Assembly (NCBI RefSeq): GCF_900188185.1
Contig: NZ_FZPA01000011.1
Coordinates: 62,001 to 126,000, forward strand
Direction: 5' to 3'
DNA from: Sphingopyxis indica
Lineage (GTDB): Bacteria > Pseudomonadota > Alphaproteobacteria > Sphingomonadales > Sphingomonadaceae
DNA length: 64,000 bases
Shown: in pieces, positions 5,733 to 31,968 of the stretch
Numbering within the stretch: position 1 is the stretch's first letter
How the letters are laid out: the number at the start of each line of letters is the position of its first letter
Program-made: the position numbers and the translations under genes
The notes under the pieces: generated by a model
The model's input: only the letters and a program-made list of their open reading frames with translations
Told to the model about the DNA's origin: nothing
Databases searched by the model: none

Positions 5733-6686
5733 TCAGGCGGGTTCGTACTGGACCGCCTTTTCCTTGCGGACCGTGCGGCTGCTGCGACCGTCGATCCCCA
5801 CTGGCACTTCGCCGGCGATCGTCGCGCGGCGCAGCGTCCGGCGCTGAAGACCGAAGTCGGCCGTCGCGCGATGCTGGGTCGCCTGATTGTCCCAGATAGC
5901 CACGTCGCCCTCGCGCCAGCGCCAGCGCACGACATTCTCGGGCTTGGTGATATGGTCCTGAAGCGTCTGGAACAGACGGGCGGAGTCGGCGGCATTCAGC
6001 CCGACGAACTGCTTGACGAAATGGCCGAGCAACAGGCTGCGCTGGCCGCTGACCGGATGAACGCGCACCACCGGATGCTCGGTTTCATAGACGGTCGAGG
6101 CAAAGACGTCGCGATGCTGCGCAATGCGCTCGCGCGCGCTGTCGCCATCGGGCGCCGACTGGAGGATCGCCGCATAGTCATAGAGGTTCGTATGCGTGGC
6201 CCACAGATTGTTGACGAGCTGCCGCAATACTTCGGGCAGACCGTCATAGGCGGTTTCGCCATTCGCCCACTGGGTGTCGCCGCCTGCTTCGGGAATGGTG
6301 ATCGCGCGCAGGATCGACGCCTTCGGATAGGCATCGACAAAGGTCACGTCGGTGTGCCAGCTCGACGCGGCATAGCCCTCGCGGCTGTCCAGTTCGAGCA
6401 GGTAGCGCGATCCTTCGGCGACCGGCACGGTCGGATGCGCGACCGGATCGCCGAGCAGCGCGGCGAACGCTTCATGCTCGCTGTCGGTCAGATGCTGCTG
6501 GTCACGGAAGAACAGCACCTTGTGGCGCGTCAGAGCGGCCTCGATGGCCTGCACGGTCGCTGCCGGCAGGTCGCCCGAAAGCTGGACGCCGTTGACGACC
6601 GCGCCGATGGTGCCGGTCACCGGGGAAATGTCGAGATCGATCCCCTTGTCGCGGGCGTTGGCGTAGCTGGTATGAAGGTCCGTCAT
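5733..6686 (-). CDS. TauD/TfdA-family dioxygenase, AtsK-like
   Basis: A 317-residue alpha-ketoglutarate dioxygenase with the iron site in SSWHTDVTF (H111, D113) and the distal histidine in ATQHRATADFG. Features such as DTQWANGETAYDGLP resemble alkylsulfatase AtsK of Pseudomonas, which oxidises alkyl sulfate esters to aldehyde plus sulfate. That assignment is by family resemblance. The gene sits between the transporter and the arylsulfatase, with a 120-base gap to the latter. Together the two dioxygenases and the sulfatase would release sulfate from both alkyl and aryl esters. Confidence 0.9.
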   Translation of the reverse strand: MTDLHTSYANARDKGIDLDISPVTGTIGAVVNGVQLSGDLPAATVQAIEAALTRHKVLFFRDQQHLTDSEHEAFAALLGDPVAHPTVPVAEGSRYLLELDSREGYAASSWHTDVTFVDAYPKASILRAITIPEAGGDTQWANGETAYDGLPEVLRQLVNNLWATHTNLYDYAAILQSAPDGDSARERIAQHRDVFASTVYETEHPVVRVHPVSGQRSLLLGHFVKQFVGLNAADSARLFQTLQDHITKPENVVRWRWREGDVAIWDNQATQHRATADFGLQRRTLRRATIAGEVPVGIDGRSSRTVRKEKAVQYEPA

Positions 6687-6717
6687 GGTCAGTCTCCTTT
6701 GAGGTTTGGACGGCGGG

Positions 6718-15128: not shown

Positions 15129-17023
15129 CAGACCGGTCCCTCGCCGCTCGGCTGAGGTTTCGGTGGCTTCGGCTCGGCCGGCGGCACCGGCTGAGATGGC
15201 GGCTCATCGGGCGCCGCTTTAACCGGCAGGGCCGCGACCGGCAATGGTTCGACCACCTGCTGCCAGAGGCTGGTCTTGGGGTCGCCCGCGATATACCCGA
15301 ACTGGCGCGCCTTGCCGCGCCGCACGATATGATCATCAGTGAGCGCGATCCTCGCGACCGGCAATCCATCAGGGAAGAGCAAATAGCCCTGATGCTTGGG
15401 TAGCCGCAGCTCGCTTTCGAGAATGGCGGGCCGAACCTTGCGCTGGCGGCCGAGCGTCGTGCGGGGCTTGTCGTCACGCTCGGCGAGCGCATCGCTCATC
15501 GTCGGCACTTCGACCTCGCAGCTCCCGATGGTGTCGCTCGCCCATTGCCGCGACTCGCTGTCGGTCATCTGGAGGAAGAGCTTGGTGTTGCAGCAGCCGA
15601 GCATCGATTCGGACAAATCCTGTCCATAGCGATGCCGCATCTGTCCGATCGCCTGAAAGCTAAGTATGACCGCCGCCCCGAACTTGCGCCCCTCGGGGAG
15701 CAGCCGGGCGAGATTGTCGACGCGCGGCAGGTCGGCGAGCTCGTCGAGGACGAACCAGACGCGGCGCTCGGCCGAAGGCGAAAGCCCGAGCATCGCACTC
15801 GCGGCACATTCGAGCCAGCAGGCGAGCAGCGGCTTCGACGCCTCGAAATAATCCTCCTTTCGCGGGACGAAGATCCAGGGCTTGGCGCCCTCATGCTCGT
15901 CGAGCCCCGAAATGAAGTCGCGGAACGCAAATAGCTCCCGCTTGTCCTCGTCGATGCGCAGGAACTGAATGAGGTTCGCAGCCTTGGCGAGCATGAAGAG
16001 GACGCTTCCGGTCGCGCGGTCGGCGTCCTCTGCGAAGGTGCGCGCCGACGAACTATTGCCTAGCCATAGCTTGAGATCGTCCTTGGTCCGCACCTGCAAG
16101 GCATGGAGCAGATCGGGCAATGTACATTTGCCCTCGCGCCACAGCGCGCGGATCATGTTCGCGACGAGGATGCGGCTCGTCTCCAGCCACACGTCGCGGT
16201 CATGCTGGCCGGTCTCGGTGACAAGCTGCTGCGCGATGCGGTTGGCGTCCGCCGGATGGGCGATCTCGGCGAAGGGTGTCCAGATCGCGCAGCGCGCATC
16301 GAACGGATTGAGAATGATGTCGCCGCGCCGGGGATCATAATATTGGGCGACGAACTCGCCGCTCGTGTCATAGACGAGTGCCGCCTCGCCGCGGGCTTCG
16401 ATACCGTCGAGCATCTGGCGGAGCACCGTGGTCTTGCCGCTCCCGGTCGTGCCGACGATCGCCATGTGGCGGGTTTCAAGGCGGGCAGGCATGGGTACTG
16501 TCGCGATGGCGAGGGCATGACCCCCTGCTTCGGAATGCGTCAGCTTCGCGAGCTTCGTCTCCGTCGTGACGATTGTTCCCCCGACGACGTGATCGCGCAG
16601 CATCCGCTCGCGCCGCCGGTCCATCGCCCCGCGAAGCAGGACCAGGCCCGACAGCCAGGCGCCAAACCCCAGCCAGCATCCGCGGATGACGAAGGCGATC
16701 ACCGTGTCGGCCGACCGGCGAAAATAGGGATGTGCCGCGACCGCGCGGGCCGAAGCTTCGTAGCGCTCGCCGCCGCCACCGATCATGACGCCGGGATCGG
16801 CGTCGGTGCCGCTCGATATCCACGTCTTCAAACGGGCGACATACCAGGTCCCGGTCGCCTGCATCGTCGCCGGCGTCAGCATGAGATAGGGAAGCGCCAG
16901 GCCGCCGAGCGCGATCGATCCCGCTAGGATGATCGCATGGCGTTTGAACTGCCGCGCCTGGTTCGATCGCCAGTGGCGCCGCAGCGCATCGGCATGGATG
17001 CGCCGGTCGCGATCGCGCATCAT
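15128..17023 (-). CDS. Type IV coupling protein (TraD/TrwB/VirD4)
   Basis: A 631-residue inner-membrane ATPase that hands the relaxase-DNA complex to the type IV secretion channel. Two transmembrane segments lie at about 30-50 and 108-130, followed by Walker A GTTGSGKTT (191-199) and a Walker B in VWFVLDELADLPRV. The C-terminal tail is rich in proline and lysine. The start overlaps the stop of the accessory protein as ATGA. No genes for the secretion channel itself (VirB4, VirB6 and so on) are in this window, so they must lie elsewhere on the element. Confidence 0.94.
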   Translation of the reverse strand: MMRDRDRRIHADALRRHWRSNQARQFKRHAIILAGSIALGGLALPYLMLTPATMQATGTWYVARLKTWISSGTDADPGVMIGGGGERYEASARAVAAHPYFRRSADTVIAFVIRGCWLGFGAWLSGLVLLRGAMDRRRERMLRDHVVGGTIVTTETKLAKLTHSEAGGHALAIATVPMPARLETRHMAIVGTTGSGKTTVLRQMLDGIEARGEAALVYDTSGEFVAQYYDPRRGDIILNPFDARCAIWTPFAEIAHPADANRIAQQLVTETGQHDRDVWLETSRILVANMIRALWREGKCTLPDLLHALQVRTKDDLKLWLGNSSSARTFAEDADRATGSVLFMLAKAANLIQFLRIDEDKRELFAFRDFISGLDEHEGAKPWIFVPRKEDYFEASKPLLACWLECAASAMLGLSPSAERRVWFVLDELADLPRVDNLARLLPEGRKFGAAVILSFQAIGQMRHRYGQDLSESMLGCCNTKLFLQMTDSESRQWASDTIGSCEVEVPTMSDALAERDDKPRTTLGRQRKVRPAILESELRLPKHQGYLLFPDGLPVARIALTDDHIVRRGKARQFGYIAGDPKTSLWQQVVEPLPVAALPVKAAPDEPPSQPVPPAEPKPPKPQPSGEGPV

Positions 17024-17391
17024 GACCGGCCCACCTCCGCAAGGCGCCGCTGGCGATCATGGGCGGGGCCGATCTCGGCGCCGATCTCCTCGTCGCTCTT
17101 CCCGCCGCCGAAGGCGGCGCTGCGCGCATAACAATAGGATGCGCAGGCAGTGAACAAGGTGCGGTCGAGCAGGCGCTCGACGTCGGCCAGCCGGGTGCCG
17201 AGCGACACAAGCTCGGCGACGAGTTCGCGGTTGTGGGATCCGTCCGCCACAGGGCTCGACAGCGCCGCAACCCCCGCTTCGACGCAGGTTGCGAGGATCG
17301 CATAGGCAGTTTCGCCTTTCACCTTCGCAAGCTCGCCTACCGCCTTGTCGACCTCGACCGGCAGTCGCACCGTATGCCTGACCAGCTTCAT
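17020..17391 (-). CDS. TrwA-like accessory DNA-binding protein of the relaxosome
   Basis: A 123-residue protein. I start it at the ATG at 17391 (MKLVRHTVRLPVEVDKAVGE) because the open frame upstream shows no protein-like composition and would run through the putative oriT. The N-terminal strand-helix-helix pattern, with TVRLPVEVDKAVGELAKVKG, is that of ribbon-helix-helix regulators such as TrwA or TraY. Such proteins bind oriT, stimulate nicking and autoregulate. Its position directly between the oriT candidate and the coupling-protein gene is the same as in R388. The exact family is not certain. Confidence 0.75.
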   Translation of the reverse strand: MKLVRHTVRLPVEVDKAVGELAKVKGETAYAILATCVEAGVAALSSPVADGSHNRELVAELVSLGTRLADVERLLDRTLFTACASYCYARSAAFGGGKSDEEIGAEIGPAHDRQRRLAEVGRS

Positions 17392-17477
17392 CGCGCTGCC
17401 CGATTGCGACGCCAATGCGGCGTCTCCAAAAGTGCCGGAATTCCGCCATTTGCGAGCATGCCGTCCGAAGCGACGTC

Positions 17478-17565
17478 GAATCCGCCGCTCGAAAAGCGGC
17501 GGAAATGCTGGATGCACCCGTGCGTGAGGTGTGTATCCAAATTATGGGTCCGATGCGTAGCATCG
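17478..17565 (+). other. oriT: Candidate origin of transfer (oriT) with nic site
   Basis: The sequence TGCGTGAGGTGT followed by GTATCC (17521-17538) closely matches the nic region of F, TGCGTGGGGTGT with the cut before a G; the expected cut here is between 17532 and 17533. A short GCAC-CC-GTGC repeat immediately precedes it, as the proximal hairpin does in R388. A perfect 9-bp hairpin TCCGCCGCT-N5-AGCGGCGGA lies at 17481-17503, and CGATGC-N3-GCATCG at 17551-17565. The cut strand would lead transfer rightward, so the relaxase and coupling genes enter last, as is usual. Confidence 0.7.
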
Positions 17566-17737
17566 CGGCCCAACTTCTTTGCCTGAATGACTATGACTTC
17601 AGACTTGAGCCGGGCTCCCGGCAGCAGAGAATTGAGGCTGCCAGCCCAGCGGGCCTGCATGCCGGGACCTGCAAGGGAAGGTGCAACGATTGGGGGCCAA
17701 TAGCGGCCGGCGTGGAGGATCTGGTATCGGCGCGCAA
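17566..17737. other. Non-coding remainder of the oriT region
   Basis: With the oriT candidate this completes a 346-base gap between the accessory-protein start and the transglycosylase stop. No gene is evident. The promoter for the accessory protein-coupling protein-relaxase operon should lie here, reading leftward. Confidence 0.4.
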
Positions 17738-18466
17738 TCATGGCCGATGCTGCTCGGACCGAGCAATGAAAAGCGGCGAACCTGCGTCCGGGACGGCGGC
17801 AGCTTCACCCGCAGAAGCTGCCGGGCGCGCAGCGTCGATCGCCGCCGCTGGTGCGACAAAAATGGCCGCATCGCGCCAGCCCGGCGACCGTCTTGGCAGC
17901 GAAGCGACGGCAGAAGTTCCAAGCGGCGCGTGCAGTTCGGGCGCGATCTTCGCGACATAGGCGCGCGTCTCGGCTGGCAGTCCGCGACGCCCCGCGACAT
18001 AGGCATCGGCGCGGCCGGGACCTGCATTATAGGCCGCGAGCATCAGCCGGACATCGCCATAGCGGTCCCACATCGCGCGCAGATACGCCGCACCTGCGAG
18101 AATATTCGCACGCGGGTCGAACGGGTCCGAGCCGAGCCGGTGGCGCACCGTCAGCGACGCCCAGGTTGCGGGCATGATTTGCATCAGACCCATGGCTCCG
18201 GCGCGCGAGACGGCGCCGGTACGGCCGCGGCTTTCGGCGTGCATCACCCGCCAGATCCAGAGTTCCGGGATGCCGAAGCGCTGCGCCGCTTCGGCGACCG
18301 GAGCGGCATAGGGATGGCGCTCCTGCTGCGTCGCGGCCGCAGCCGGAGCGCAGATTGGCGGCAGAAGCAGTGCAGCCGATATGGCCGCGCGCCGCGCGAC
18401 GACGCGCATCGACCGGCACAGCACAGACAGGATGGCGAGGCTTCGCCGCAGTCGCGCAGCGATCAT
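17738..18466 (-). CDS. Lytic transglycosylase of the conjugation system (VirB1-like)
   Basis: A 242-residue SLT-family muramidase that opens peptidoglycan for the transfer channel. I place the start at 18466, where ATGA overlaps the TraF stop; it gives a basic N-terminus, a hydrophobic segment and a cut near CAPAAAA, that is, a signal peptide. The catalytic glutamate is in MHAESRGRTGAVS, followed by GAMGLMQIMPATW and AAYNAGPGRADAYV, the classic SLT motifs. The tail after about residue 175 is low-complexity alanine-rich. Confidence 0.9.
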   Translation of the reverse strand: MIAARLRRSLAILSVLCRSMRVVARRAAISAALLLPPICAPAAAATQQERHPYAAPVAEAAQRFGIPELWIWRVMHAESRGRTGAVSRAGAMGLMQIMPATWASLTVRHRLGSDPFDPRANILAGAAYLRAMWDRYGDVRLMLAAYNAGPGRADAYVAGRRGLPAETRAYVAKIAPELHAPLGTSAVASLPRRSPGWRDAAIFVAPAAAIDAARPAASAGEAAAVPDAGSPLFIARSEQHRP

Positions 18467-19053
18467 CGTGCTTGCTCCCTCACGTCGGAAATGCGTTCGA
18501 AGGAAGGGCTCGCGCGGTGCCAGCGAAGCGGAGCTTCGGCGTTGCTGCGCGTCAGAACAGGGTGCGCCTTGCCGATCAGTCCGGATGCCGGAATTGGCCC
18601 GAAATAACGCCCATCGAGGCTGCCCCGTGCCGCACTGATCAGGAATAATTCCTGCGCGCCGACGATGCGGCAACCGCGCCAGACCGGGAGCGGACGGCCT
18701 GCCCCGTCGCGCGCCAGCGCGCGGGCTACGCCCGCTCCATCGATCGTGACAAAATCACCCGAACGGCAGACAAGAGCACCCGGAAGCGCGGCGATGCGCT
18801 TCAGCAGCGGTACGCCGCGCGGGAGATATCCGCGCCGGGAAAGATAGGCCGCGAGCGCCGGCGGCGGGTCGATGGCGACAAGGTCGCCGAGCCGCGGCCG
18901 CGCGCCGACATCGATCCGGTAGAGGCCGAGGGGAGCGCTGGCGCTCGCATTCCAGAGCAGACGTGGCGCCGGCTTTAGCCAGGCGACCGCGACAAAAGAG
19001 ACGGCAAACAGCGCCGCTGCGCCCACCGTCGCGTACAAGAGCCGGCGGTTCAT
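18463..19053 (-). CDS. traF: TraF-type S26 signal peptidase
   Basis: A 196-residue inner-membrane protease of the TraF/LepB (S26) family, which in RP4 processes and cyclises pilin. Start at 19053, overlapping the DUF2840 stop as ATGA. One N-terminal membrane segment (TVGAAALFAVSFVAVAWL) is followed by NASASAPLGLYRID with the nucleophile serine region, and LPRGVPLLKRIAALPG with the catalytic lysine. The late motif DGRYFGPIPASGLIGKA is also standard. It is coupled to the transglycosylase gene. Confidence 0.92.
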   Translation of the reverse strand: MNRRLLYATVGAAALFAVSFVAVAWLKPAPRLLWNASASAPLGLYRIDVGARPRLGDLVAIDPPPALAAYLSRRGYLPRGVPLLKRIAALPGALVCRSGDFVTIDGAGVARALARDGAGRPLPVWRGCRIVGAQELFLISAARGSLDGRYFGPIPASGLIGKAHPVLTRSNAEAPLRWHRASPSFERISDVREQAR

Positions 19054-19595
19054 GCCTCGATCGCCCGGCGGCGCAGCCATGCCGTGTGGCGATCGAGACC
19101 ATAGGGCCGGAAAGGCAGGCCGGCGGCGAGCCGGTTGCCGACATGGCGCCAGTGGTCGGGCGATGCATCGCAGGCCTCGATGCCAGCCGCCTCCACCGCG
19201 TCGATCGCCGCGAGCGCCTGCTGGACCTTCGGCCAGCCGTCGATCCGAGCAAGGATTTCGGCGCCGGGGCGGACGAAGGGCAGCGTCGAAAATTGTTCGC
19301 CGGGCGTCATCGCAATTGCGATCGCGATGGTCGAGTGGATGGTACCGAAGTCGTTCGACGTCCACCTGACAAAGCCAAAGACCGCGCCGGGACGAAAGGC
19401 CATAACGCGGGTGCTGCGGCTCAATATCCGCTCGGCGGCGACGCGGCCGAAGCGGATCCATTGTTCGTGGCGGCCCTCGATCCAGGTCAGTTCGACCTCG
19501 GTCAAACCGTTGCCATGGGGCGACGAAGAAACGCATCCGCTGTCGTCGCCGGAGCGGACGAGCGCAGCGCCGGACGCTTCGACAGCGCGCGGCAT
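19050..19595 (-). CDS. DUF2840 protein
   Basis: A 181-residue protein of the DUF2840 family, always found in this conjugation operon type between the HTH protein and TraF. Start at 19595, overlapping the HTH stop as TGATG; the open frame extends further upstream but without support. The motif VMAFRPGAVFGFVRWTSNDF followed by TIHSTIAIAI and QFSTLPFVRPGAEIL is the family core. There is no signal peptide. The function is unknown; the context implies a transfer or regulatory role. Confidence 0.87.
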   Translation of the reverse strand: MPRAVEASGAALVRSGDDSGCVSSSPHGNGLTEVELTWIEGRHEQWIRFGRVAAERILSRSTRVMAFRPGAVFGFVRWTSNDFGTIHSTIAIAIAMTPGEQFSTLPFVRPGAEILARIDGWPKVQQALAAIDAVEAAGIEACDASPDHWRHVGNRLAAGLPFRPYGLDRHTAWLRRRAIEA

Positions 19596-19837
19596 CAGGC
19601 GAGCCCCCGGCGCGCCGGATGCACGGTGCCCACGCCCGGATCGGAGGTCGACGAGCGCCGCCCGAGTTCGACCCATGCGTCGAGTTCGTCGATCGCATAG
19701 ACCACGCGCCCGCCGAGTTTGCGATAGGCCGGGCCGGTGCCGTAGCAGCGATGCTTTTCGAGCGTTCGCGGCGAGAGGCCGACGCGGCGCGCCGCGTCAG
19801 GGGTCCTCAAATAGCGGGGAGGGTGCGCGGCGGTCAT
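19595..19837 (-). CDS. AlpA/MerR-like helix-turn-helix protein
   Basis: An 80-residue winged-helix protein with the HTH RTPDAARRVGLSPRTLEKHR followed by GGRVVYAIDELDAWV, the pattern of AlpA/Xis-type excisionase and regulator proteins. A strong GGAAGGAG ribosome site lies seven bases before the ATG at 19837, which decides the start, although the frame is open further upstream into the DUF2285 remnant. Such proteins in integrative elements regulate transfer or excision. Its stop overlaps the DUF2840 start. Confidence 0.85.
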   Translation of the reverse strand: MTAAHPPRYLRTPDAARRVGLSPRTLEKHRCYGTGPAYRKLGGRVVYAIDELDAWVELGRRSSTSDPGVGTVHPARRGLA

Positions 19838-20717
19838 GGGATGCTCCTTCCAGCGGCGGCTCCCGAAAAGGCGGGGCAGCGCGCGATGGGGCGTCGTGGC
19901 GCGAAAGCGGGAGCGCGGGGGAGCGGCTGAATCGCAGCGCTGTTTTTGTCGCCCCGCGCCGCCGGCGAGGAGCGCGCGATAGCCGCCTGCGGCGAGCGCT
20001 TCGGCCTCGTGGATAAGGCGCTGGGTCCGGCGCCGCTCGGGGGACGACTTCCACGAAGCGCCCTGTCCTATCGAAAGGCGCGGATAGACGAGGCGCTGCG
20101 CGACCATATGGCTCGTGACATCGCGGCCGCGGCGAAGGTCGAGAATGGCCAGCAGCAGGTGGAGACGCCGAGCCTGATAGGCGGTTGGCCCGAACAACTG
20201 CGCACCGCGCCGCGCGCCGCGCAGCCATCGCTCGAGGCCCGCCAGCGCCTCGAGGCGGGCATCGAGCAGCGCATCGCAAGGGATCAGCGCAGCGAGCGGG
20301 TCGCCAACGGGCACGCCGCGCAGACAGATTCGATGAAGCGACACACCATCGCCCATCACCAGGTGCGTTTCGTCGACCGCCGACCGCGACGCGATGGCGA
20401 GAGGCCAATGGGCGGGATCGAAATGCGGCCTATCTTTCATACCGGCGATTGCGGCGCCGAGGATTATGACCTGGGGGCAGACGGCCGGGTTCCAGAAGCC
20501 AGGCGCGTCACGCGCCGACAGATGGGGATCGGCCGGGAAAGCAAAGGCCCCATCGCCGGGCCATCACCTCCTGCGCCTTCGGATCGCCCTCGGGATCCGA
20601 CATGACGTTCTTATAGTCGCGGCAATATTCGAGATTGCGGCGAAGAAATTCCTGCGCGAAGTCGGGGAAATCGAGCCGGGCCTTGCGGTCCCCTTCTTGC
20701 CTTGCTTCCTCCGCCAT
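19838..20717 (-). pseudogene. DUF6499-DUF2285 regulator, frameshifted
   Basis: The N-terminal DUF6499-like part (from 20717: FPDFAQEFLRRNLEYCRDY, then RRWGLCFP) ends at a stop at 20508. The DUF2285 part continues in another frame from about 20540: ADPHLSARDAPGFWNPAV, then HWPLAI, LHLLLAILDLRR, and WKSSPERRRTQRLIHEA. Removing one C from the CCC at about 20538-20540 (plus strand GGG) would join them as WGLCFPADPHLSARD, which reads like intact relatives. The reading frame also lacks a stop before the HTH gene. It may be a real mutation or a base-calling error. Confidence 0.7.
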
Positions 20718-20806
20718 GCGCGCCTCCGTGCAAGGCGGCAGACTTGGCGACGACGCTCAGGCCGCCAATTCCATGAGGCGGGGAGTCACATCCCCAGAAG
20801 TGGGTA

Positions 20807-20831
20807 TCCCGCCCGGCAGCGCCGGGCGGGA
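20807..20831 (-). terminator. Stable hairpin after the first DUF736 gene
   Basis: A perfect 11-bp stem TCCCGCCCGGC-AGC-GCCGGGCGGGA lies nine bases past the DUF736 stop. No U-tract follows on the minus strand, so it may stabilise the transcript end rather than terminate by itself. Confidence 0.5.
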
Positions 20832-20839
20832 GCGGAGCA

Positions 20840-21154
20840 TCAGTCGCCGCGGCGCGCCTGGCGATTCCAGACGAGGTCATGCTCATCGCCTTCGCCCGCG
20901 AAGAGCTGCGCGAAGATCGGCGCCGTGAAGCTGGGGTCGTCGAGCTTGACCGACAGATAGGGGCGCTTGTCCTGCGTCTGCTTCTCCCAGGCCGCGCCGA
21001 CTTCGACGTCGCCGATGAAGACGCGGTGGCTGGGGGCGTTGCCGGTCGGATTTTCCTCGGGCGCGATGCGAACCGACTTCGCCTGCACCGAGAGGGTGAC
21101 TATGCTGCCCCGAAATTCTCCGGAGACTTGTCTGAATGTGCCGATCTTGGCCAT
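20840..21154 (-). CDS. DUF736 family protein (copy 1)
   Basis: A 104-residue protein of the DUF736 family (MAKIGTFRQVSGEFRGSI, then GDVEVGAAWEKQ and RPYLSVKLDDPSF). The start at 21154 is preceded by AAGGAATGC. The family is small, beta-rich and abundant on sphingomonad and rhizobial conjugative elements; a single-strand-DNA or oriT-associated role has been guessed but not shown. A structured leader element lies about 115-170 bases upstream. A second, divergent copy lies at 22652-22972. Confidence 0.9.
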   Translation of the reverse strand: MAKIGTFRQVSGEFRGSIVTLSVQAKSVRIAPEENPTGNAPSHRVFIGDVEVGAAWEKQTQDKRPYLSVKLDDPSFTAPIFAQLFAGEGDEHDLVWNRQARRGD

Positions 21155-21251
21155 GATGCATTCCTTCCTTGGCTCGGACCGCACCATCGCGGTCTCGATG
21201 CGCATCGAAGGTCAGCGGGGACCGGCGGTGCAGCCAAGGGCCCGGAGCAAA

Positions 21252-21322
21252 GCGGAGGATGGCGCGTGCCCGTCTTTCTTGCTTCGCGAGGAACGGCGGC
21301 ACGCCGGGGGAAGAAAGACGGG
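21252..21322 (-). promoter_or_regulatory. Structured leader element A (upstream of DUF736 copy 1)
   Basis: A long stem GCCCGTCTTTCTT (21268-21280) with AAGAAAGACGGGC (21311-21323) encloses GCTTCGCGA and an inner CGGCG-N3-CGCCG hairpin. It is flanked on one side by GCGGAGGATGGCG (21252-21264), a segment repeated exactly beside element B at 57249-57261, and on the other by CGCCGTTGCG. The outer stem of B differs in sequence but is equally paired. It would sit in the 5' leader of the DUF736 transcript. Confidence 0.65.
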
Positions 21323-21464
21323 CGCGCGCCGTTGCGCCGAGCCGGTCAGCAAAGCGTCCCGCTGACAGATGGCGCATGTCGAGAGACCGCGACGGGAGGG
21401 CCGCAGGACGGACGCATAACCAATCGGCCGGTAAGGAGAGCGAAGATGGAGGGGGTAAGGCGGC

Positions 21465-21896
21465 CTAGACGGATAAGGCCGGTCGCTCGGCTGAAACCGC
21501 AGGTGACACGAGATCGCGCCAGCTCGCATAGCCGGTCACAAGGCCGGCGAGGATGGCGAGGCCATGCTCCGCACCCGCTTCAAGCCCGCCCAAGACGGCG
21601 AGCGCGGTCCCGGCCTGATAGCCGGCAAAGGCCGCGGCGCCGACGAACATCAGGATGACGCAGCGCGTCACGGGGAGCGGGGCCGTGCCGCCGACCAACC
21701 GCCGGCCAAGCGCCAGGACGGCGATTCCCGCGATCAGCGCCAACCCCAGGATCGTCAACCAGCCAAAGCCGAGATCGCGCAATGCGAAGCCGAGGGCGAT
21801 CGCGGCGCAGACGGGCAGCGCGAACTTGGCGCTGCGAAAGAGAAGCCGGAGACAGTAGAGCGCCGCGATAGCGCCGAGAATGAGCATCAGGGTCAT
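21465..21896 (-). CDS. Small integral membrane protein, unknown
   Basis: A 143-residue protein with about four hydrophobic segments (MTLMLILGAIAALYCLRLLF, FALPVCAAIALGFALRDLGF, WLTILGLALIAGIAVLAL and VILMFVGAAAFAGY). A strong AGGAGG site lies before the ATG at 21896, so I use this start. I do not recognise the family. It lies among core genes of the element and could be an entry-exclusion or channel-associated protein; that is speculation from context. Confidence 0.65.
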   Translation of the reverse strand: MTLMLILGAIAALYCLRLLFRSAKFALPVCAAIALGFALRDLGFGWLTILGLALIAGIAVLALGRRLVGGTAPLPVTRCVILMFVGAAAFAGYQAGTALAVLGGLEAGAEHGLAILAGLVTGYASWRDLVSPAVSAERPALSV

Positions 21897-22019
21897 GTAC
21901 GTCCTCCTGTCGGACGCGCCCGCCACCACCTCCACAGCGCAACCTGCGCGCGAAGCATAGCAGAAGCCGGTCCGGGGAAGAACCCGAACCGGCCCCAATC
22001 TGGACCTATTTTCAAAGGG

Positions 22020-22184
22020 TCAGCGATTGAAGGGGTCATATTCGCAGACGATCGTTTCGGGGTCGCCATCGAATTCGTCGAGCGGCATCACCGAATATCC
22101 GGCGCTGGTTTCGATAAGGATGATCACGGTCATCATGGTCCGGGCGAGGTTCCAGCCGAGCGATTGGGCGGTGGTGAGCGGCAT
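22020..22184 (-). CDS. Small hypothetical protein, 54 aa
   Basis: Begins MPLTTAQSLGWNLARTM at 22184 with GGAGTTC upstream. It contains one short hydrophobic stretch (MMTVIILIETSAGYSVM) and an acidic C-terminus DEFDGDPETIVCEYDPFNR. Codon use is like its neighbours. Similar short proteins sit between DUF736 genes in related elements, but no function is known. A possible structured element with an inner CCCCG-N5-CGGGG hairpin lies immediately upstream (22207-22254). Confidence 0.55.
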   Translation of the reverse strand: MPLTTAQSLGWNLARTMMTVIILIETSAGYSVMPLDEFDGDPETIVCEYDPFNR

Positions 22185-22262
22185 GGGATGAACTCCTGTC
22201 CTTGGGAGCGGGCCATTCCCGCTCGACAGGCGCCCCGCCGGACGGGGACTGGCCGCAATCAT

Positions 22263-22618
22263 CGCGGCAAAGCCGCGGCCCGAGCGCAGCGTGGGGACCC
22301 TTTACGGGTTGATTGAAGGAGGCCGGGCCTCGGCCAAGGGATCAGCGACAATCGAGAGCGGGGATGGCCCGCCCCCATGCGGCAGCCCCCATGCCGCCCA
22401 ATCGCCCCCTTGCCGCCGCTTCCCGGCGCCTGACCGAATTCTTACCGACACGCCAAACCAGCGATCCCTCACGCCGATCAATCATGATTTTCGAAGCGCC
22501 GCGACATGCGGCCCGTCAGGGTGATCCCCAACACAGTTGCCCATTTCGCCAGGGTCTGCCGGGCCGAACATGCCGAACGGCGGCCCGAAGACCGCCGTCC
22601 ATCGACAGAAGGGAGAAA
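22263..22618. other. Intergenic region, no gene seen
   Basis: About 350 bases. On the minus strand a short open frame ends RQTLAKWATVLGITLTGRM before a stop near 22482, but I find no start codon for it, so I do not call a gene. Confidence 0.3.
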
Positions 22619-22644
22619 CCGGCTCCGCCCGAGGGCGGAGCCGG
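22619..22644 (-). terminator. Stable hairpin after the second DUF736 gene
   Basis: An 11-bp perfect stem CCGGCTCCGCC-CGAG-GGCGGAGCCGG lies seven bases past the stop of DUF736 copy 2. No U-rich tail is present. It parallels the hairpin after copy 1. Confidence 0.5.
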
Positions 22645-22651
22645 GTGGCTG

Positions 22652-22972
22652 TCAGGCCGGCGGGTTCCAGATGATGACCTTCTTCATCGGGTCGTCGCCC
22701 GGCGCATTGGCGACATTGCCGTAGATGGTCCCGAATTCGGGGGCCGACATGGTCACCGACACATATTCGGCGCCGTTGCTCTGCGAGAAACGCTTCCAGC
22801 CGGCGCCGAGCTCGAAGCCGTTCTTGCGGCTGAGGATGCGGTAATCGGGCTCGTTTTCCTTGGTCTTGCGGCCATTGGGCACGATCGCGATCGGCGCGGT
22901 GACGTTGAGGGTGGCCAGCGTGCCTTCGAAGCTGCCGTCGGCCTTGACGTTGAGGTTGGCAATGGTGGGCAT
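22652..22972 (-). CDS. DUF736 family protein (copy 2)
   Basis: A 106-residue DUF736 protein beginning MPTIANLNVKADGSFEGTL. Core motifs PDYRILSRKNGFELGAGW and GAEYVSVTMSAPEFGTIYGN are clear. The start at 22972 has AAGGAGA seven bases upstream. It is only distantly similar to copy 1, so the two are likely specialised paralogues. A related structured leader element lies upstream. Confidence 0.9.
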   Translation of the reverse strand: MPTIANLNVKADGSFEGTLATLNVTAPIAIVPNGRKTKENEPDYRILSRKNGFELGAGWKRFSQSNGAEYVSVTMSAPEFGTIYGNVANAPGDDPMKKVIIWNPPA

Positions 22973-23006
22973 ATCAAATCTCCTTCGCTTGCTCGGGGAC
23001 ATCCCC

Positions 23007-23084
23007 GATGGCGCCGGAAGAAGGGGCCGCGAGCTGCCGTCACCGAGCGGCACGCGAGGGCGAACCCCGCATGGGGTTGACGGC
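23007..23084 (-). promoter_or_regulatory. Structured leader element E (upstream of DUF736 copy 2)
   Basis: Has GATGGCG at 23007-23013, an outer stem GCCGTC(A) (23036-23042) with (T)GACGGC (23078-23084), an inner hairpin AACCCC-GCAT-GGGGTT (23063-23078), and CGCGAGGGCGA between them. The layout matches elements A and B, with different stem sequences. Confidence 0.45.
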
Positions 23085-24122: not shown

Positions 24123-25565
24123 GTGACGATAGCGGCTGCGACTTTGGCTCCTTTAGGCGAGGCGGCAACAGCCTTCGACAGTCTGCGGGTCCGTGCGCGC
24201 GGTAACGACGTCTTACTTATCGATCGCGCCGGACGCTTCTTGTTAGTGAATCCACAGCTGGCTGCGCGATATGAGTCCGGTCAACTCTCTGCCAGTGATG
24301 AAGATTTTCTCGCGGAGCGCGGCCACTTTCCTCGGTCCGAGCTGGAACGATTAGCCGGAGCCTATATTCGCGGGCGACGCCAAGTCGTGCCCGGAGCACT
24401 GGATTATCTCATTCTGGTTCCAACGCTGCGCTGCAATCTCGCGTGCAGCTACTGCCAGGTGTCGCGCGCGGCGATCGATGCGCGGGGCCATGACTGGTCT
24501 TCGGCGACGCTCGCCGGGGTGGAGGCGCTTGTTGGGGGGTTGACCGGGCCTGAAGTGAAGATCGAATTCCAAGGCGGCGAACCCACGCTGCGCCCCGATC
24601 TCATCAGGGCAGTTATCGACGCAGTGCCAGCGGAGATCCAGGCGCAATTCATCATCTGCACAAATTTGCAAACGCTCAACGACGAGGCGATGGCGCTATT
24701 CGACCGCGATGATGTCCAGATCAGTACCTCGCTTGACGGCCCGCTAGCGGTCCATTCACGCCAACGTCAGGTTGACGCCGGCGAGGCCAAAGGATTTCAT
24801 GCCAATCTCAGGACGCTGCTCGCGCGCTATGGTCCGGGCAAGATTTCGGCACTGCCAACCATAAATCCGCTTTCGCCGCCCGATCCGGAGCAGCTGATCG
24901 ACAGCTTCGCCGAACTCGGCCTTGATTCGATCTATCTGCGCCCGATCAACTATCAGGGTTTCGCGCGCAAGCGGCACCCCGCATCGCGGGTCAACGGCGA
25001 CCAATGGCTCGCCTATCATGCAGCCTTCGTGCGCCGCCTGATCGCACGAAACTGGATCGACCGCAGCCGCGTCCTTGAAGAAAGCTATTTCAGCCTGCTC
25101 CTGAGGCGCATCTTTCGGCCAGGCGAGGATCGCCACGTCGACCTCAGAAACCCCAATCCGATCGGACGCGACTATATCGTGGTCGACCACGACGGATGCG
25201 TATATCCGACCGACGAGGCCCGGATGCTCACTCGCGCTGGCATCATCGATCTTTCGATCGGCGATATTCACGCAGGGTGGGATACGCCGGAACGCGCGGC
25301 CCTCGAAGCGGCCGCCACCAACGATGGCGACCCCGCTTGTGAAGCTTGTGCTTATCAGCCTTATTGCGGCCGCGACATCATCGACGACATCGCACGTTAT
25401 GGACGAATTGATCTGCCGCGCGAAGAAACCGACTTTTGCCGCCGCCACCTATATCTGTTCGATCTTGCCTTCGAGCTCATTCACTCCGATGACCCCGCAG
25501 TGCAATATTCGCTGCGTCGCTGGCTCGGATTAGCCGGCGAAACCGGCGCGCTGGCGGCGCCATGA
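24123..25565 (+). CDS. hxsB: His-Xaa-Ser system radical SAM maturase HxsB
   Basis: A 480-residue radical SAM enzyme predicted to modify the His-Xaa-Ser repeat protein. The [4Fe-4S] motif CNLACSYC (C104, C108, C111) sits in LRCNLACSYCQVSRA, a sequence characteristic of HxsB, followed by EFQGGEPTLRPDL. A C-terminal cysteine cluster (CEACAYQPYC, about residues 401-410) resembles a SPASM domain for extra iron-sulfur clusters. It starts with GTG at 24123; an ATG two bases earlier is followed directly by TGA. The stop overlaps the hxsC start as ATGA. The chemistry of the system is not established. Confidence 0.92.
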   Translation: MTIAAATLAPLGEAATAFDSLRVRARGNDVLLIDRAGRFLLVNPQLAARYESGQLSASDEDFLAERGHFPRSELERLAGAYIRGRRQVVPGALDYLILVPTLRCNLACSYCQVSRAAIDARGHDWSSATLAGVEALVGGLTGPEVKIEFQGGEPTLRPDLIRAVIDAVPAEIQAQFIICTNLQTLNDEAMALFDRDDVQISTSLDGPLAVHSRQRQVDAGEAKGFHANLRTLLARYGPGKISALPTINPLSPPDPEQLIDSFAELGLDSIYLRPINYQGFARKRHPASRVNGDQWLAYHAAFVRRLIARNWIDRSRVLEESYFSLLLRRIFRPGEDRHVDLRNPNPIGRDYIVVDHDGCVYPTDEARMLTRAGIIDLSIGDIHAGWDTPERAALEAAATNDGDPACEACAYQPYCGRDIIDDIARYGRIDLPREETDFCRRHLYLFDLAFELIHSDDPAVQYSLRRWLGLAGETGALAAP

Positions 25566-26635
25566 TCCCGCTCGTCCTAAACGCCGAGAGCGATGCCGAG
25601 GCGCCGTTCGTCACCCGGCTCGCTTCGCGTCGGTCGGCCGATCCCCGCGAGAGCTTTTGTCTTTCCTCCACGCCGACCCAAAGCCTTTGGTGCGGGATGG
25701 AAGGCTTGTTCACATTGGCTCATCCAATGGACGCCCTCACCGGCGACGTCGTCCTCGTGGACCCTTCCGCCCGGCGGGCCGAACGGCTTCTGCGTGCCGG
25801 TTCGCCGCACAACAGCCTCCTTGTCACCGAACAATGCGATCAGCTTTGCGTCATGTGTTCGCAGCCGCCGAAGAAGACGCATCGCGATCGCTTCGAACAT
25901 TTCGAGACGGCGTGCCGGCTTGCAGAGCAGGGCAGCGTCATAGGCATTACTGGCGGCGAGCCCACGCTCCATATGGGCCCTTTGCTTGCGATGATCGAGC
26001 GATTGCTCGCCGACCGACCCGACCTTGGCTTTCATATTTTGAGCAACGGACAGCATTTCGATGCGGCGAACACGGCGCGCCTTGCCGGACGGCTTCGCAC
26101 GAACATCGTCTGGGGCATCCCGCTATATGCCGCCGATGCGCCTCTCCACGACCATATTGTCGGCAAGCCCGGCGCGTTCGAGCGGCTGATCGCGAGCTTC
26201 GCGCATCTGCTCGTCGCCGGGGCGCGGATCGAATTGCGCACCGTCATGCTTGAAGACAATCTCGATGCGCTCGCGGGCCTTGCCCGGTTCGTCGCGCACA
26301 ATCTTCCCCATATCGAACAATGGTCGCTCATGGGGCTGGAGAATATCGGCTTCGCGCGGCGGCGCTGGGACGCGCTCCACGTCGATCTCCGCGCACGCTT
26401 CGCGCCGGTCGGCAACGCGCTGGATCAAGCGAGTCTCTACGGCGTGCCCGTCCGGCTGTTCAATATCCCGCTCTGCCACATTCCGCCCGAGTTCCGCGAT
26501 TACGCCGTCGCTTCGATCTCCGACTGGAAGCAACGCTTCGCCCCGGCGTGCGAAGGCTGCGCCGCGCGCGCAAATTGCGCGGGCTTCTTCGAATGGCATC
26601 CCGATCATCTCGTCGAGAAGGTAGTACCGCTGTGA
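25562..26635 (+). CDS. hxsC: His-Xaa-Ser system radical SAM maturase HxsC
   Basis: A 357-residue radical SAM enzyme, partner of HxsB. The cluster motif is in TEQCDQLCVMCSQPPKKTH (C92, C96, C99), the form typical of HxsC, followed by ITGGEPTLH. The C-terminus has CEGCAARANCAGFF, a possible auxiliary-cluster site. Overlaps at both ends (ATGA with hxsB, GTGA with hxsA) show it is co-translated with them. Two maturases for one small substrate is the defining feature of the system. Confidence 0.92.
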   Translation: MIPLVLNAESDAEAPFVTRLASRRSADPRESFCLSSTPTQSLWCGMEGLFTLAHPMDALTGDVVLVDPSARRAERLLRAGSPHNSLLVTEQCDQLCVMCSQPPKKTHRDRFEHFETACRLAEQGSVIGITGGEPTLHMGPLLAMIERLLADRPDLGFHILSNGQHFDAANTARLAGRLRTNIVWGIPLYAADAPLHDHIVGKPGAFERLIASFAHLLVAGARIELRTVMLEDNLDALAGLARFVAHNLPHIEQWSLMGLENIGFARRRWDALHVDLRARFAPVGNALDQASLYGVPVRLFNIPLCHIPPEFRDYAVASISDWKQRFAPACEGCAARANCAGFFEWHPDHLVEKVVPL

Positions 26636-27219
26636 AGAAAAGACGTTTCCTGATCTCGGGGCTCGTGGCTGCCGGTATCGCTCCGCTGCCTCCGGCACAG
26701 GCCACGCCCGCAGGATTTTCTCCGACCGGCGATGGAGGCGATGGCGACAAGGACGAGATGGTCCGCAAGTTTGCGCAGGACCATCGCTTCACGCTGGCAC
26801 AGCATCGTTCGCATTCAAGCCATGCATCGCATAGCAGCCATCGCTCAGGCTCGAGCGGACGCGCGCGGGCGCCGGTCTATACTCCGCCGCCGCCGCGTAA
26901 GCCGGTGACCCGCCCGGCACCTGCCCCGACGCCATCTCCGCGCAATGAACGCAGCACGCCGCCCTCGTCGATCCTGCCCTCGTCGCCTGCGATCGCCCCG
27001 CAGAGCTTCTATAGCGAGCCCTCCGCGCAGCAAATTCGCGACATCGTGATGCGCGTACAAATCTCGCTCAAGGCCTATGGCTATTATGATGGCGGCATCG
27101 ACGGCATGGCCGGACCCCAGACGCGCGAGGCGTTGAAGCGTTTCCAGACCGACTATGGCCTCAAAGTCACCGGCACCATCACTCCCGAAGTTCTCGATGC
27201 GTTCAAGATTTCAACCTGA
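26632..27219 (+). CDS. hxsA: His-Xaa-Ser repeat protein HxsA
   Basis: The presumed substrate, 195 residues from a GTG at 26632. A basic N-terminus and hydrophobic stretch (KKRRFLISGLVAAGIAPLPP) ending in AQA look like an export signal. Five tandem His-Xaa-Ser units (HRSHSSHASHSSHRS, residues 58-72) form the signature, followed by a proline-rich linker and a C-terminal peptidoglycan-binding domain (about 125-190: VQISLKAYGYYDGGIDGMAG, TREALKRFQTDYGLKVTGTI). This suggests a periplasmic, wall-bound protein whose repeat is chemically modified before export. Function in the cell is unknown. Confidence 0.92.
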   Translation: MKKRRFLISGLVAAGIAPLPPAQATPAGFSPTGDGGDGDKDEMVRKFAQDHRFTLAQHRSHSSHASHSSHRSGSSGRARAPVYTPPPPRKPVTRPAPAPTPSPRNERSTPPSSILPSSPAIAPQSFYSEPSAQQIRDIVMRVQISLKAYGYYDGGIDGMAGPQTREALKRFQTDYGLKVTGTITPEVLDAFKIST

Positions 27220-27595
27220 GCGGATCGCCACGCATCTCGTTGCGCTGCTTGTCGGCGCGCTGATAGCCTGGCTCGCCCTGCCGCTGTGGCGCGAGATGGT
27301 GATGGGCTGGAACCAGGAACGCTATGGGCTTCTCGTCGAACAATGCGACGGCGCGATGCGCGACCACTATCAGGCCAAGCAGACCGCCGCACTCGCGCCA
27401 TCGGCCGATGGGGCGCGCGCACTAGCCGCGAGCGAAATCGGTCTCATCATCTGTCAGGATTATGACCTCCACCAGAAGAAACTTCTCCAATGGGGCCTGA
27501 GCGAGAACGAGCTCGCACAGATGCGCCTGCGGGCGATCGAGGCGCGGGCAAGCGATCTTCAGGAAGTGATCGAGACTCATGAAATCCGTTTCTAA
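27197..27595 (+). CDS. TIGR03982-type His-Xaa-Ser system membrane protein
   Basis: A 132-residue protein starting at the ATG at 27197, inside the end of hxsA (23-base overlap). One N-terminal membrane anchor (THLVALLVGALIAWLALPLW) precedes a soluble domain with KLLQWGLSENELAQMRLRAI and two conserved-looking cysteines (VEQCDGAM, IICQDYD). By position and features it matches the TIGR03982 family known only from His-Xaa-Ser loci; this family name is from memory. It may hold the maturases or HxsA at the membrane. Confidence 0.75.
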   Translation: MRSRFQPERIATHLVALLVGALIAWLALPLWREMVMGWNQERYGLLVEQCDGAMRDHYQAKQTAALAPSADGARALAASEIGLIICQDYDLHQKKLLQWGLSENELAQMRLRAIEARASDLQEVIETHEIRF

Positions 27596-28844
27596 CGCGA
27601 CACTGCTCAGCGCGGCGCTGTTCCTCACCGCCTGCGATGCACCTCCCTCCGATGGATCGCAGGCGTCCGCAGAACCGGCGACTGACACCATGCGCATGGC
27701 GGCGCTGCGCGACGCCGCGATTGCTTCGGGCTTCGTGCGCGCCGAGGCGCTCGCGATCCCGGTCGATCCGGCGCGGCGCGATGCGGGCCGCCTGATCTTT
27801 GCGTCGACCAAGATGAGTCTCAACCAGAGCATCAGTTGCCGCGATTGCCATCTCAACGAGTTCGGCTCGACCGATGGTCTCCCCAACGCCGTCGGCGCCG
27901 GCGCTGTAGGTCATGGCGCGGCGCGCATGGCGAACAGCGAGGGGCCCATCCTTCCGCGCAACGTGCTTCCCTTCTGGGGCCGCGGCAGCAAGGGGTTCAC
28001 GACTTTTTTTTGGGACGGCAAGGTCAGCGTCGAGGATGGGAAAGTCGTCAGCCAGTTCGGTGACCGCGCCCCATCTGGCGATCCGATGGTGGTCGCGGCG
28101 CATCTTCCCTCGGTCGAGCTGCGCGAAATGATCGCCGATACACCTACGGTCCGCGACACATTGGTGACCGAAGATGTCGATGCGGCGCGGACGGTGCAGG
28201 ACGAGCTAGCACGCCGTTTCGCCGACGATGCCGAGATCGGTCCGCGCCTTGCCGCTGCCTATCGGCTGCCCGCCGGCAAGCTGGCTTTCGGACATGTCGC
28301 CGATGCACTTGCGGCCTTCATTCGCGACGAATTCCGCATTCGTCCCACGCGTCTCGAGGCATTCGTCTTTGACCGCGGCCAGATCTCGCGCACCGAGCTG
28401 GCTGGCGGTTTGCTGTTCTACGGTCGCGGCCGCTGCTCCTTTTGTCACAGCGGTCCCTATTTCAGCGATTTCGACTTTCATGCCGTTGCCTTTCCCCAGG
28501 CGGGCTTTGGCAAAAATGGCTTCGGCATTGATGAAGGCCGGTACAATGTCACCCTCGACCCAGCCGATCGCTTTCGCTTCCGTACCCCGCCGCTCTACAA
28601 TCTATCGAGCACCGGTCCCTATTCGCATTCGGGATCGGTCGTGCGCGTGGAGGATGCGATCATCGCCCATTTCGACCCGCTGCGCCTTATCGACACTAAA
28701 GACATGAGCATCCGCGAGCGCGCCGACCTTTATTCGCGGCTGGGACCCGCGTCGCGCGAGCCTCTGCCAAGCGCGCTTACCGATGCCGAAGTCCGCTCGA
28801 TCGCGGCATTTCTCCGGATGCTCGACTTCAAAGGCCCTAGCTAA
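27579..28844 (+). CDS. MauG-like diheme cytochrome c peroxidase-family lipoprotein
   Basis: A 421-residue exported protein. The N-terminus has a lipobox (FLTAC, C19), so it is probably a lipoprotein. Two c-type heme motifs are present: CRDCH (C87-H91) and CSFCH (C286-H290). The fold is that of bacterial diheme peroxidases and MauG, which oxidises protein side chains to make a quinone cofactor. MauG-like proteins are a recurrent companion of His-Xaa-Ser genes. It overlaps the previous gene by 17 bases, so it belongs to the same operon. It could carry out a second, periplasmic oxidation of HxsA; this is inference. Confidence 0.88.
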   Translation: MKSVSNATLLSAALFLTACDAPPSDGSQASAEPATDTMRMAALRDAAIASGFVRAEALAIPVDPARRDAGRLIFASTKMSLNQSISCRDCHLNEFGSTDGLPNAVGAGAVGHGAARMANSEGPILPRNVLPFWGRGSKGFTTFFWDGKVSVEDGKVVSQFGDRAPSGDPMVVAAHLPSVELREMIADTPTVRDTLVTEDVDAARTVQDELARRFADDAEIGPRLAAAYRLPAGKLAFGHVADALAAFIRDEFRIRPTRLEAFVFDRGQISRTELAGGLLFYGRGRCSFCHSGPYFSDFDFHAVAFPQAGFGKNGFGIDEGRYNVTLDPADRFRFRTPPLYNLSSTGPYSHSGSVVRVEDAIIAHFDPLRLIDTKDMSIRERADLYSRLGPASREPLPSALTDAEVRSIAAFLRMLDFKGPS

Positions 28845-29863: not shown

Positions 29864-30772
29864 ATGAATGAGCTTGTACAGATTGGCCCGATCAGCCCGC
29901 TACGCCAGCGGCTGATCGACGACATGACCATGCGCCGCTTCTCGAAGGAGACGCAGCGTAACTATCTGCGCGACGTCGGACGGTTCGCGACCTGGCTGGG
30001 GCGCTCGCCGCACACCGCAAGCGCCGAGGATATCCGGCAGTTCCAGATCGAGCAGCAACAGGCGGGCGTCCCGGCGCCGACCATGAACAGCATCGTCGGC
30101 GCGCTGAGGTTCTTCTTCACGCACACGCTCGACCGCCCCGATCTCGCGCGCAAGCTGGTCCGCACGAGGCAAGTTCGCAAGATCCCCCTCGTGCTGACGA
30201 TGGCCGAGGTAAAGCGCCTGCTCGATGCGACGCGCTCCTTGAAGCACCAGGCCGCGCTGTCGGTCGCTTACGGCGCGGGCTTGCGCGTCGCCGAGGTGTC
30301 GGCGCTCAAGGTGACCGATATCGACAGCAAGCGCATGCTGCTGCGGATCGAGCGCGGTAAAGGCGGACGCTACCGCAACGCCATGCTGCCCGAAGGCCTG
30401 CTCCTGCTCCTGCGCGACTGGTGGCGCGCGGGACGACAGCAGGGCATCCTCGTTCCCGATGGCTGGCTCTTCCCCGGACAGAGCGCCGCGGTTCCGATCA
30501 GCACGCGCCAGCTCTACCGCGTCGTCGTCGAAGCCGCCGAGGCCGCCGATATCGACAAGCGCGTCGGGCCGCACACCCTGCGCCACAGCTTCGCCACCCA
30601 TCTGCTCGAGGACGGCGTCGATATCCGCGTCATCCAGGCGCTGCTCGGCCACGCCAAGCTAAACACCACCGCCTTCTACACCCAGGTCGCGACCAAGACG
30701 GTACGGTCGATCGTCAGCCCGCTCGACAGGCTCGCGCTCGCATCGCCGAGCGAGGAGGCACCCGACGGTTAG
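29864..30772 (+). CDS. Tyrosine recombinase/integrase of the IS91 element
   Basis: A 302-residue phage-integrase-family protein. The N-terminal SAM-like core-binding domain (about 15-100) precedes the catalytic domain, with the first arginine in YGAGLRVAEVSAL, HTLRHSFATHLL (H and second R), GHAKLNTTAFY (last H) and the tyrosine nucleophile in TTAFYTQV. IS91-family elements often carry such a recombinase directly upstream of the transposase. Five bases separate it from the transposase start. Confidence 0.92.
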   Translation: MNELVQIGPISPLRQRLIDDMTMRRFSKETQRNYLRDVGRFATWLGRSPHTASAEDIRQFQIEQQQAGVPAPTMNSIVGALRFFFTHTLDRPDLARKLVRTRQVRKIPLVLTMAEVKRLLDATRSLKHQAALSVAYGAGLRVAEVSALKVTDIDSKRMLLRIERGKGGRYRNAMLPEGLLLLLRDWWRAGRQQGILVPDGWLFPGQSAAVPISTRQLYRVVVEAAEAADIDKRVGPHTLRHSFATHLLEDGVDIRVIQALLGHAKLNTTAFYTQVATKTVRSIVSPLDRLALASPSEEAPDG

Positions 30773-30777
30773 GGTTC

Positions 30778-31968
30778 GTGCGCGCCTCACTCGAGGTCGC
30801 CGACATCTTCCGTGCCGCTGGCCCCGCATATCGCACGGCCCATGCCGGGCACCTCAGCCTGCATCAGCTGAGGATCATGTCGGCGATCGAACATTGCCGC
30901 ACCGCCGCGCTCGGCGGTCATGTCGAGGCCTGTACTGACTGCGGGCACTGGCGGATCGCCTATAACAGCTGCCGCAACCGGCACTGCCCCAGGTGCCAGG
31001 GCGCTGCGGCGCGCAGCTGGCTCGAAGCGCGCGAGGCCGACCTCCTCCCGGTCGGCTATTTCCACGTCGTCTTCACCCTCCCTGCCGAGGTCGCCGCGAT
31101 CGCCTTCCACAACAAGGCGCTGGTCTATGACCTCTTGTTCAAGGCGGCGGCAGATACGATGCTGACCATCGCCGCCGATCCGAAGCACCTCGGCGCCCGG
31201 ATCGGCATCACCGCCGTCCTCCATACGTGGGGCTCGGCGCTCACCTATCATCCGCACATCCACATGATCGTGCCTGGCGGCGGCATCTCGCGTGATGGGA
31301 CACGCTGGATATCGGCGCGCCCCGCCTTCCTGCTCCCGGTCCGCGTGCTCGGCGCGCTTTTTCGCCGCCTGTTCCTCACCCGGCTGCGCGCGCTGCACGA
31401 TGCCGGCAAGCTCGCTTTCTTTGGCAGCCTCACGCATCTCGCCGAACGACGCGCATTCCTGCGGCACCTCTCGCCGGTCCGCAAAAAGCGCTGGGTCGTC
31501 TACGCCAAGGCCCCGTTCGCCGGCCCCGAAGCCGTGCTCGCTTATCTCGCGCGCTACACCCACCGCGTCGCCATATCGAACAGCCGCCTCCTCCGGTTCG
31601 ACAAGGCCGGGGTCACCTTCCGCTACAAGGATTACCGCAAGGCCGGCGCCGGACGGCAGCAGGTCATGACGCTCGCCGCCGACGAGTTCATCCGTCGCTT
31701 TCTTCTCCACGCCCTGCCGCGCGGGTTCCACCGCATCCGCCACTATGGCCTCCTCGCCAGCGCACACCGCAAGGATCATCTCGAGCGCGCCCGCCGTTTG
31801 CTCAGCGCCGCGCCTCCACCGGCCGCCGACTCGATCGATGAGCCCGAGGCCCGGCCGCTGTGCCCGTGCTGCGGCGGCACCATGGTGATCATCGAGGTCT
31901 TCGAACGTCGCTATCAACCCCGAGCGCCGCCACCGCCATCACTCTCATCCGGAACACAGGCGCCGTGA
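30778..31968 (+). CDS. IS91-family HUH transposase
   Basis: A 396-residue rolling-circle transposase from a GTG at 30778. An N-terminal zinc-binding region (CTDCGHWRIAYNSCRNRHCP, then RCQG) is followed by the HUH metal site in YHPHIHMIVPGGG and the tyrosine region in YLARYTHRVAISNSRL. A late CPCCGG knuckle completes it. Length and order are typical for the family, and the gene appears intact. The frame is open upstream through the recombinase gene but only the GTG is consistent with IS91 N-termini. Confidence 0.92.
   Translation: MRASLEVADIFRAAGPAYRTAHAGHLSLHQLRIMSAIEHCRTAALGGHVEACTDCGHWRIAYNSCRNRHCPRCQGAAARSWLEAREADLLPVGYFHVVFTLPAEVAAIAFHNKALVYDLLFKAAADTMLTIAADPKHLGARIGITAVLHTWGSALTYHPHIHMIVPGGGISRDGTRWISARPAFLLPVRVLGALFRRLFLTRLRALHDAGKLAFFGSLTHLAERRAFLRHLSPVRKKRWVVYAKAPFAGPEAVLAYLARYTHRVAISNSRLLRFDKAGVTFRYKDYRKAGAGRQQVMTLAADEFIRRFLLHALPRGFHRIRHYGLLASAHRKDHLERARRLLSAAPPPAADSIDEPEARPLCPCCGGTMVIIEVFERRYQPRAPPPPSLSSGTQAP

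Follow-up and report, generated by a model that had tools for sequence, protein, structure and literature searches.

A five-gene Hxs operon with a TIGR03982 and diheme enzyme module on a conjugative element of Sphingopyxis indica

Described Hxs systems and the operon in Sphingopyxis indica

The Hxs genes form a known set whose product is uncharacterised; as the first-pass annotation of this DNA had stated, the mentions of Hxs that we found in the literature were only passing or bioinformatic (PMC9062424, PMC8446631). A four-gene form, hxsD-hxsB-hxsC-hxsA, is often seen in Rhizobium and on plasmids of Enterobacteriaceae. It shares HxsB, HxsC and an HxsA of 5-7 HxS units with the operon described here and possesses hxsD or a positional counterpart, whereas the last two genes of our operon, for the TIGR03982 protein and the diheme enzyme, are absent, and its HxsA linker is Tyr-rich and without the motif STPPSS[VI]LPSSP. 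A conjugative plasmid of Tritonibacter scottomollicae (NZ_CP136707, locus L079) carries these five genes in the same order, with its hxsB annotated as hxsB and no annotated hxsD, but the open frame of its HxsB begins about 90 residues further downstream and its diheme protein, 47% identical to the one here, lacks the lipobox.

In the window (the whole stretch of 64,000 nucleotides that was analysed), the first-pass annotation had described one operon of five overlapping genes, encoding two radical SAM enzymes with CxxxCxxC motifs, a small exported protein with five tandem HxS units and a peptidoglycan-binding domain, a one-pass membrane protein and a diheme lipoprotein, and our re-reading bore out these descriptions. 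All five genes were intact and formed one overlapping series at 24123-28844 on the forward strand: hxsB (24123..25565, 480 aa, TIGR03978), hxsC for the second radical SAM maturase (25562..26635, 357 aa, TIGR03977), hxsA for the exported repeat protein (26632..27219, 195 aa, TIGR03979 and PF01471), the TIGR03982 protein gene (27197..27595, 132 aa) and the diheme c-type lipoprotein gene (27579..28844, 421 aa, TIGR03981 and PF03150). The overlaps between neighbours were, in this order, 4, 4, 23 and 17 bases, with corrected starts at 26632 (GTG) for HxsA and 27197 for the TIGR03982 protein.

In the NCBIfam profile search that had been proposed along with the Hxs assignment, all five genes were best matched by families of the NCBI Hxs set. 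The assignment stood for HxsC (307.3 bits, cut-off 267.9), HxsA (138.6 bits, cut-off 121.65), the TIGR03982 protein (81.2 bits, cut-off 40) and the diheme enzyme (364.4 bits, cut-off 340), but HxsB, although matched over its full length with 357.3 bits (E 1.2e-106), fell 13 bits under the curated cut-off of 370 for TIGR03978; its second-best family reached only 78 bits, a gap of 279 bits. With both module proteins over their curated cut-offs, the five-gene operon is a complete Hxs set of the subtype with the TIGR03982/TIGR03981 module. The find is an ordinary one, since the operon belongs to a known, functionally unexplained gene set whose predicted role is the modification of a small exported cell-wall protein, and the comparative results narrow what to examine and correct the earlier MauG inference.

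The CxxxCxxC motif of HxsB covers residues 104-111 (bases 24432-24455) and that of HxsC residues 92-99 (bases 25835-25858), both intact. HxsB has further C-terminal Cys at 406, 409, 415 and 439, and HxsC at 305, 330, 333 and 339, and the Cys were invariant across 21/21 HxsB and 21/21 HxsC, respectively. In three other operons that carry the diheme enzyme (L045:5670-6977, L079:5705-6973, L080:6127-6912), HxsB was shortened at its N-terminus and no hxsD-like gene lay next to it, which could point to decay or to a reduced form.

Distribution, hxsD and the surrounding mobile DNA

The survey of operon content among relatives, also suggested in the first-pass annotation, recovered both the shorter and the five-gene forms, and the five-gene order recurred in further Sphingomonadales, in Rhodobacterales, in a Rhizobiaceae bin and in Aquisalinus. 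TIGR03981 was over its cut-off in 4 of 296 relatives, and these four genomes all belonged to the nine, out of 298, in which HxsC exceeded its own cut-off. TIGR03982 was rare: it passed its cut-off in 2/385 genomes of the class and 1/398 of the phylum, both figures including the genome of the window, and on plasmids in two loci only, both Hxs; the class, phylum and plasmid searches did not find TIGR03982 outside Hxs loci. Weak TIGR03982 matches in three genomes (G616, G445, G538) were taken as chance, because the two regions inspected had no Hxs genes and a match lay inside an ORF resembling a LacI-type regulator.

A profile search gave no match to the hxsD model TIGR03976 anywhere in the genome, and a home-made profile of alphaproteobacterial counterparts gave none in the 64-kb window; this absence of hxsD had gone unmentioned in the earlier annotation. 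TIGR03976 itself was discarded as a test and replaced by the home-made profile, because it missed positional counterparts of hxsD and is thus uninformative in alphaproteobacteria. These counterparts matched its C-terminal signature weakly (hhalign E 0.009, probability only 4%), and their position suggests that they are HxsD. An hxsD beside hxsB is usual, not universal: two annotated Hxs loci (L079 and L099) had no annotated hxsD, and the remaining diheme-carrying operons of sphingomonads lacked it as well, while a divergent positional counterpart was kept in two sphingomonad operons without that enzyme. At L074 and L078 a divergent hxsD-like ORF overlaps hxsB.

The operon is carried on a conjugative element, which the earlier annotation had likewise not mentioned. 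Its flanks (12333-23053 and 29864-31968) encode a TrwC relaxase, a TrwB coupling protein, an S26 peptidase, a RovC-type regulator and two DUF736 proteins, together with a tyrosine recombinase and an IS91 transposase (IS91-type unit). Moreover, HxsC relatives were present in 432 PLSDB plasmid records, 332 of them from Klebsiella and most of them conjugative, so that Hxs genes reside on hundreds of plasmids while their product is still uncharacterised. CBASS or AbiE-type genes were seen near plasmid Hxs operons (L081:1464-5914, L100:1-1295, L080:1-1267). Elsewhere in the window (1564-10460), a sulfatase, two TauD dioxygenases, an MFS transporter and a TonB receptor form a cluster that apparently serves organosulfur use.

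The HxsA linker and the TIGR03982 protein

HxsA consists of a signal peptide, the HxS run, a linker and a PG_binding_1 domain (PF01471, E 3e-16). The five tandem HxS units, (HxS)5 = HRSHSSHASHSSHRS, were read directly at 26803..26847 on the forward strand, and the linker motif RNERSTPPSSILPSSPA lies at 26941..26991 on the same strand (consensus STPPSS[VI]LPSSP), being present only in HxsA of loci with both TIGR03982 and the diheme enzyme. By a relaxed pattern, the motif occurred in 17/17 distinct HxsA from loci with these two genes and in 0/23 from loci without them (Fisher p 1e-11; strict pattern, 16/17 versus 0/23), counts made on the very sequences in which the motif had been picked by eye, and after a single relaxation of the pattern to admit one variant. 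Only four cases stood outside this discovery set: L087, a locus with the module that was found after the motif had been noticed, possessed the motif, and three later-found HxsA from loci without the diheme enzyme did not. A search for further genomes with TIGR03982, meant as a held-out set for the motif, yielded no new ones.

On the HxsB+HxsC tree, presence of the module changed five times, at least three of them on starred (supported) branches, and the motif tracked the module in 3/3 supported independent pairs, which are too few for significance by themselves (sign test p 0.25). The HxS run, in contrast, had 5-7 units both with and without the module, with no difference between the groups. 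The number of Tyr in the linker was 1.6 in HxsA with the diheme enzyme versus 5.2 without it, and HxsA from diheme-carrying loci had no conserved Trp. This tie between the linker motif and the presence of the TIGR03982 and diheme genes is new. Since the motif follows the module while the HxS run is unchanged, we infer that the two extra proteins most likely work on the HxsA linker or in concert with it, and that Hxs forms with and without the diheme enzyme share the radical SAM step. The motif would thus offer a defined peptide stretch as candidate meeting point of the periplasmic module and HxsA. As it has no obviously oxidisable residue, it may serve for docking or reflect mere co-inheritance.

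A second HxS cluster was present inside the linker of HxsA at L074 and L078 (9-10 HxS in total), and an apparent extra PG-binding-like repeat ahead of the C-terminal domain at L040 and L073. At L071:2688-2960 (numbered on the reverse-complemented locus), the gene for a short protein with an HxS run but no PG-binding domain immediately precedes an hxsD-like ORF and hxsB.

The TIGR03982 protein has a single N-terminal membrane helix followed by periplasmic helices, and its predicted structure is a long N-terminal helix with a helical bundle (pLDDT 86) for which Foldseek found no significant structural relative in the PDB. Cys50, Cys86, Tyr89, His57 and His128 were invariant in the TIGR03982 alignment, and a disulfide is likely.

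The pair might also be a separate passenger module on some Hxs operons with no biochemical link to HxsA, as its presence or absence among closely related operons and the location of the operon on mobile DNA would allow. However, the genes overlap in a fixed order, TIGR03982 was not found away from Hxs loci in the genomes and plasmids searched, and the HxsA motif switches together with the module, and we consider such independence quite improbable.

The diheme enzyme and its predicted heme 2 ligand

The diheme enzyme has two CxxCH motifs (27837-27851 and 28434-28448) and a lipobox, LTAC (27624-27635), and it also matched PF03150 (E 2e-13). Its best solved relatives, by PDB alignments and Foldseek, are diheme peroxidases, the best Foldseek matches being cytochrome c peroxidases (CcPs); no relative was found in the viral contigs searched. 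Both CxxCH motifs, Trp145, Pro177 and Glu183 were invariant in 14 diheme sequences, the last three spaced as Trp93, Pro107 and Glu113 of MauG. Heme 1 has no conserved distal His, none being conserved between heme 1 and residue 175, whereas classical bacterial diheme CcPs have a distal His loop at this heme.

The predicted axial ligand of heme 2 is His364 (codon 28668..28670, forward strand), which is invariant in 14/14 sequences. In ungapped PDB alignments, it aligned with residue 294 of MauG (Tyr294) and with residue 275 of Pseudomonas CcP (Met275), the Met ligand of that enzyme; classical CcPs differ from this one by having Met on heme 2. The best-scoring MauG entry was 3orv, a Y294H mutant, and with the C-terminal part as query, 3orv was the only MauG entry whose alignment reached residue 294. 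When MAFFT was used to align the enzyme with four proteins matched by the MauG model, each of them under its cut-off, a one-residue gap was placed at His364, so the assignment relies on the ungapped alignments and on the invariance of His364 next to a variable residue 365. AlphaFold recovered the fold, but the heme regions were too poor to place ligands (mean pLDDT 58), and therefore the ligand call comes from sequence alignment.

MauG acts on methylamine dehydrogenase via a bis-Fe(IV) state, and a MauG-type oxidation, which might yield a redox cofactor, a metal site or a cross-link, had been proposed for this operon. True MauG-like maturation, that is, a protein-derived quinone or cross-link made in HxsA via bis-Fe(IV), agrees with the diheme fold, the two CxxCH motifs, the inter-heme Trp and the peroxide pocket that the enzyme shares with MauG (TIGR03791) and MbnH (TIGR04039), including the MauG-like spacing of Trp145, Pro177 and Glu183, and with MbnH as its second-best NCBIfam family (83 bits). 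However, the enzyme scored far under the cut-offs of both families (57.3 bits versus 443.85 for TIGR03791), and HxsA from diheme loci lacks a conserved Trp and has few Tyr in its linker. Moreover, His364 replaces the Tyr ligand, and Y294H MauG reportedly loses TTQ formation. The heme 2 ligand separates the two groups: every MauG retains Tyr294, and CcPs have Met or His at this position (PMC7567364). The proposed MauG-type chemistry is weakened by these results, and we regard such maturation as very doubtful. The engineered Y294H MauG (PDB 3orv) would have a native equivalent in this enzyme, and the natural His in place of Tyr cautions against assuming TTQ-style chemistry.

The anatomy of the operon is compatible with the earlier two-compartment idea, and the motif correlation supports a connection of the extra genes with HxsA. 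We tentatively propose, at somewhat less than even confidence in the whole model, a cytoplasmic HxsB/HxsC step followed by a periplasmic, linker-guided step of the module. In the cytoplasm, HxsB and HxsC would modify the HxS run by a step shared with operons that lack the diheme enzyme, and HxsA would be exported and then retained at the peptidoglycan, where the TIGR03982 protein, anchored in the membrane, and the diheme enzyme, anchored by lipid, could meet it via the STPPSS[VI]LPSSP linker. Peroxide would be opened at the unhindered N-terminal heme, where no distal His is conserved and Pro177 and Glu183 are retained, electrons would be relayed via Trp145 to the His-ligated second heme, and the enzyme may oxidise HxsA after its export or, alternatively, the invariant Cys-x-x-Tyr-Asp site in TIGR03982. 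The specific version, with radical SAM modification inside and linker-guided oxidation by the His-ligated diheme enzyme and TIGR03982 outside, with no need for the Tyr-ligated bis-Fe(IV) heme pair of MauG, is possible but on the unlikely side.

The enzyme could instead be a peroxidase that takes electrons from the matured, peptidoglycan-bound HxsA or from TIGR03982, the operon then being a redox or peroxide-defence device rather than a two-step maturation system. The best Foldseek matches, the retained peroxide pocket residues and the His or Met that marks CcPs at the ligand position (PMC7567364) all fit such a role. However, other Hxs operons lack the diheme enzyme, so a peroxidase role would not be the general purpose of HxsA, and the nearest non-Hxs relatives adjoin genes for a secreted CRTAC1 protein in 3/4 places examined (L103 by sequence alone), suggesting a partner or substrate; we think this device unlikely. 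MauG-like diheme proteins of methanotrophs have also been proposed as oxidants of a co-transcribed secreted partner (PMC3912023). The CRTAC1-linked relatives, 'cytochrome c peroxidases' of Rhodobacterales (L101:4863-6215, L102:4908-6230, L103:5835-7304), share the His-x-Asp-Pro motif with its ligand His, but their partner is CRTAC1, not HxsA, and the inter-heme Trp is replaced by His.
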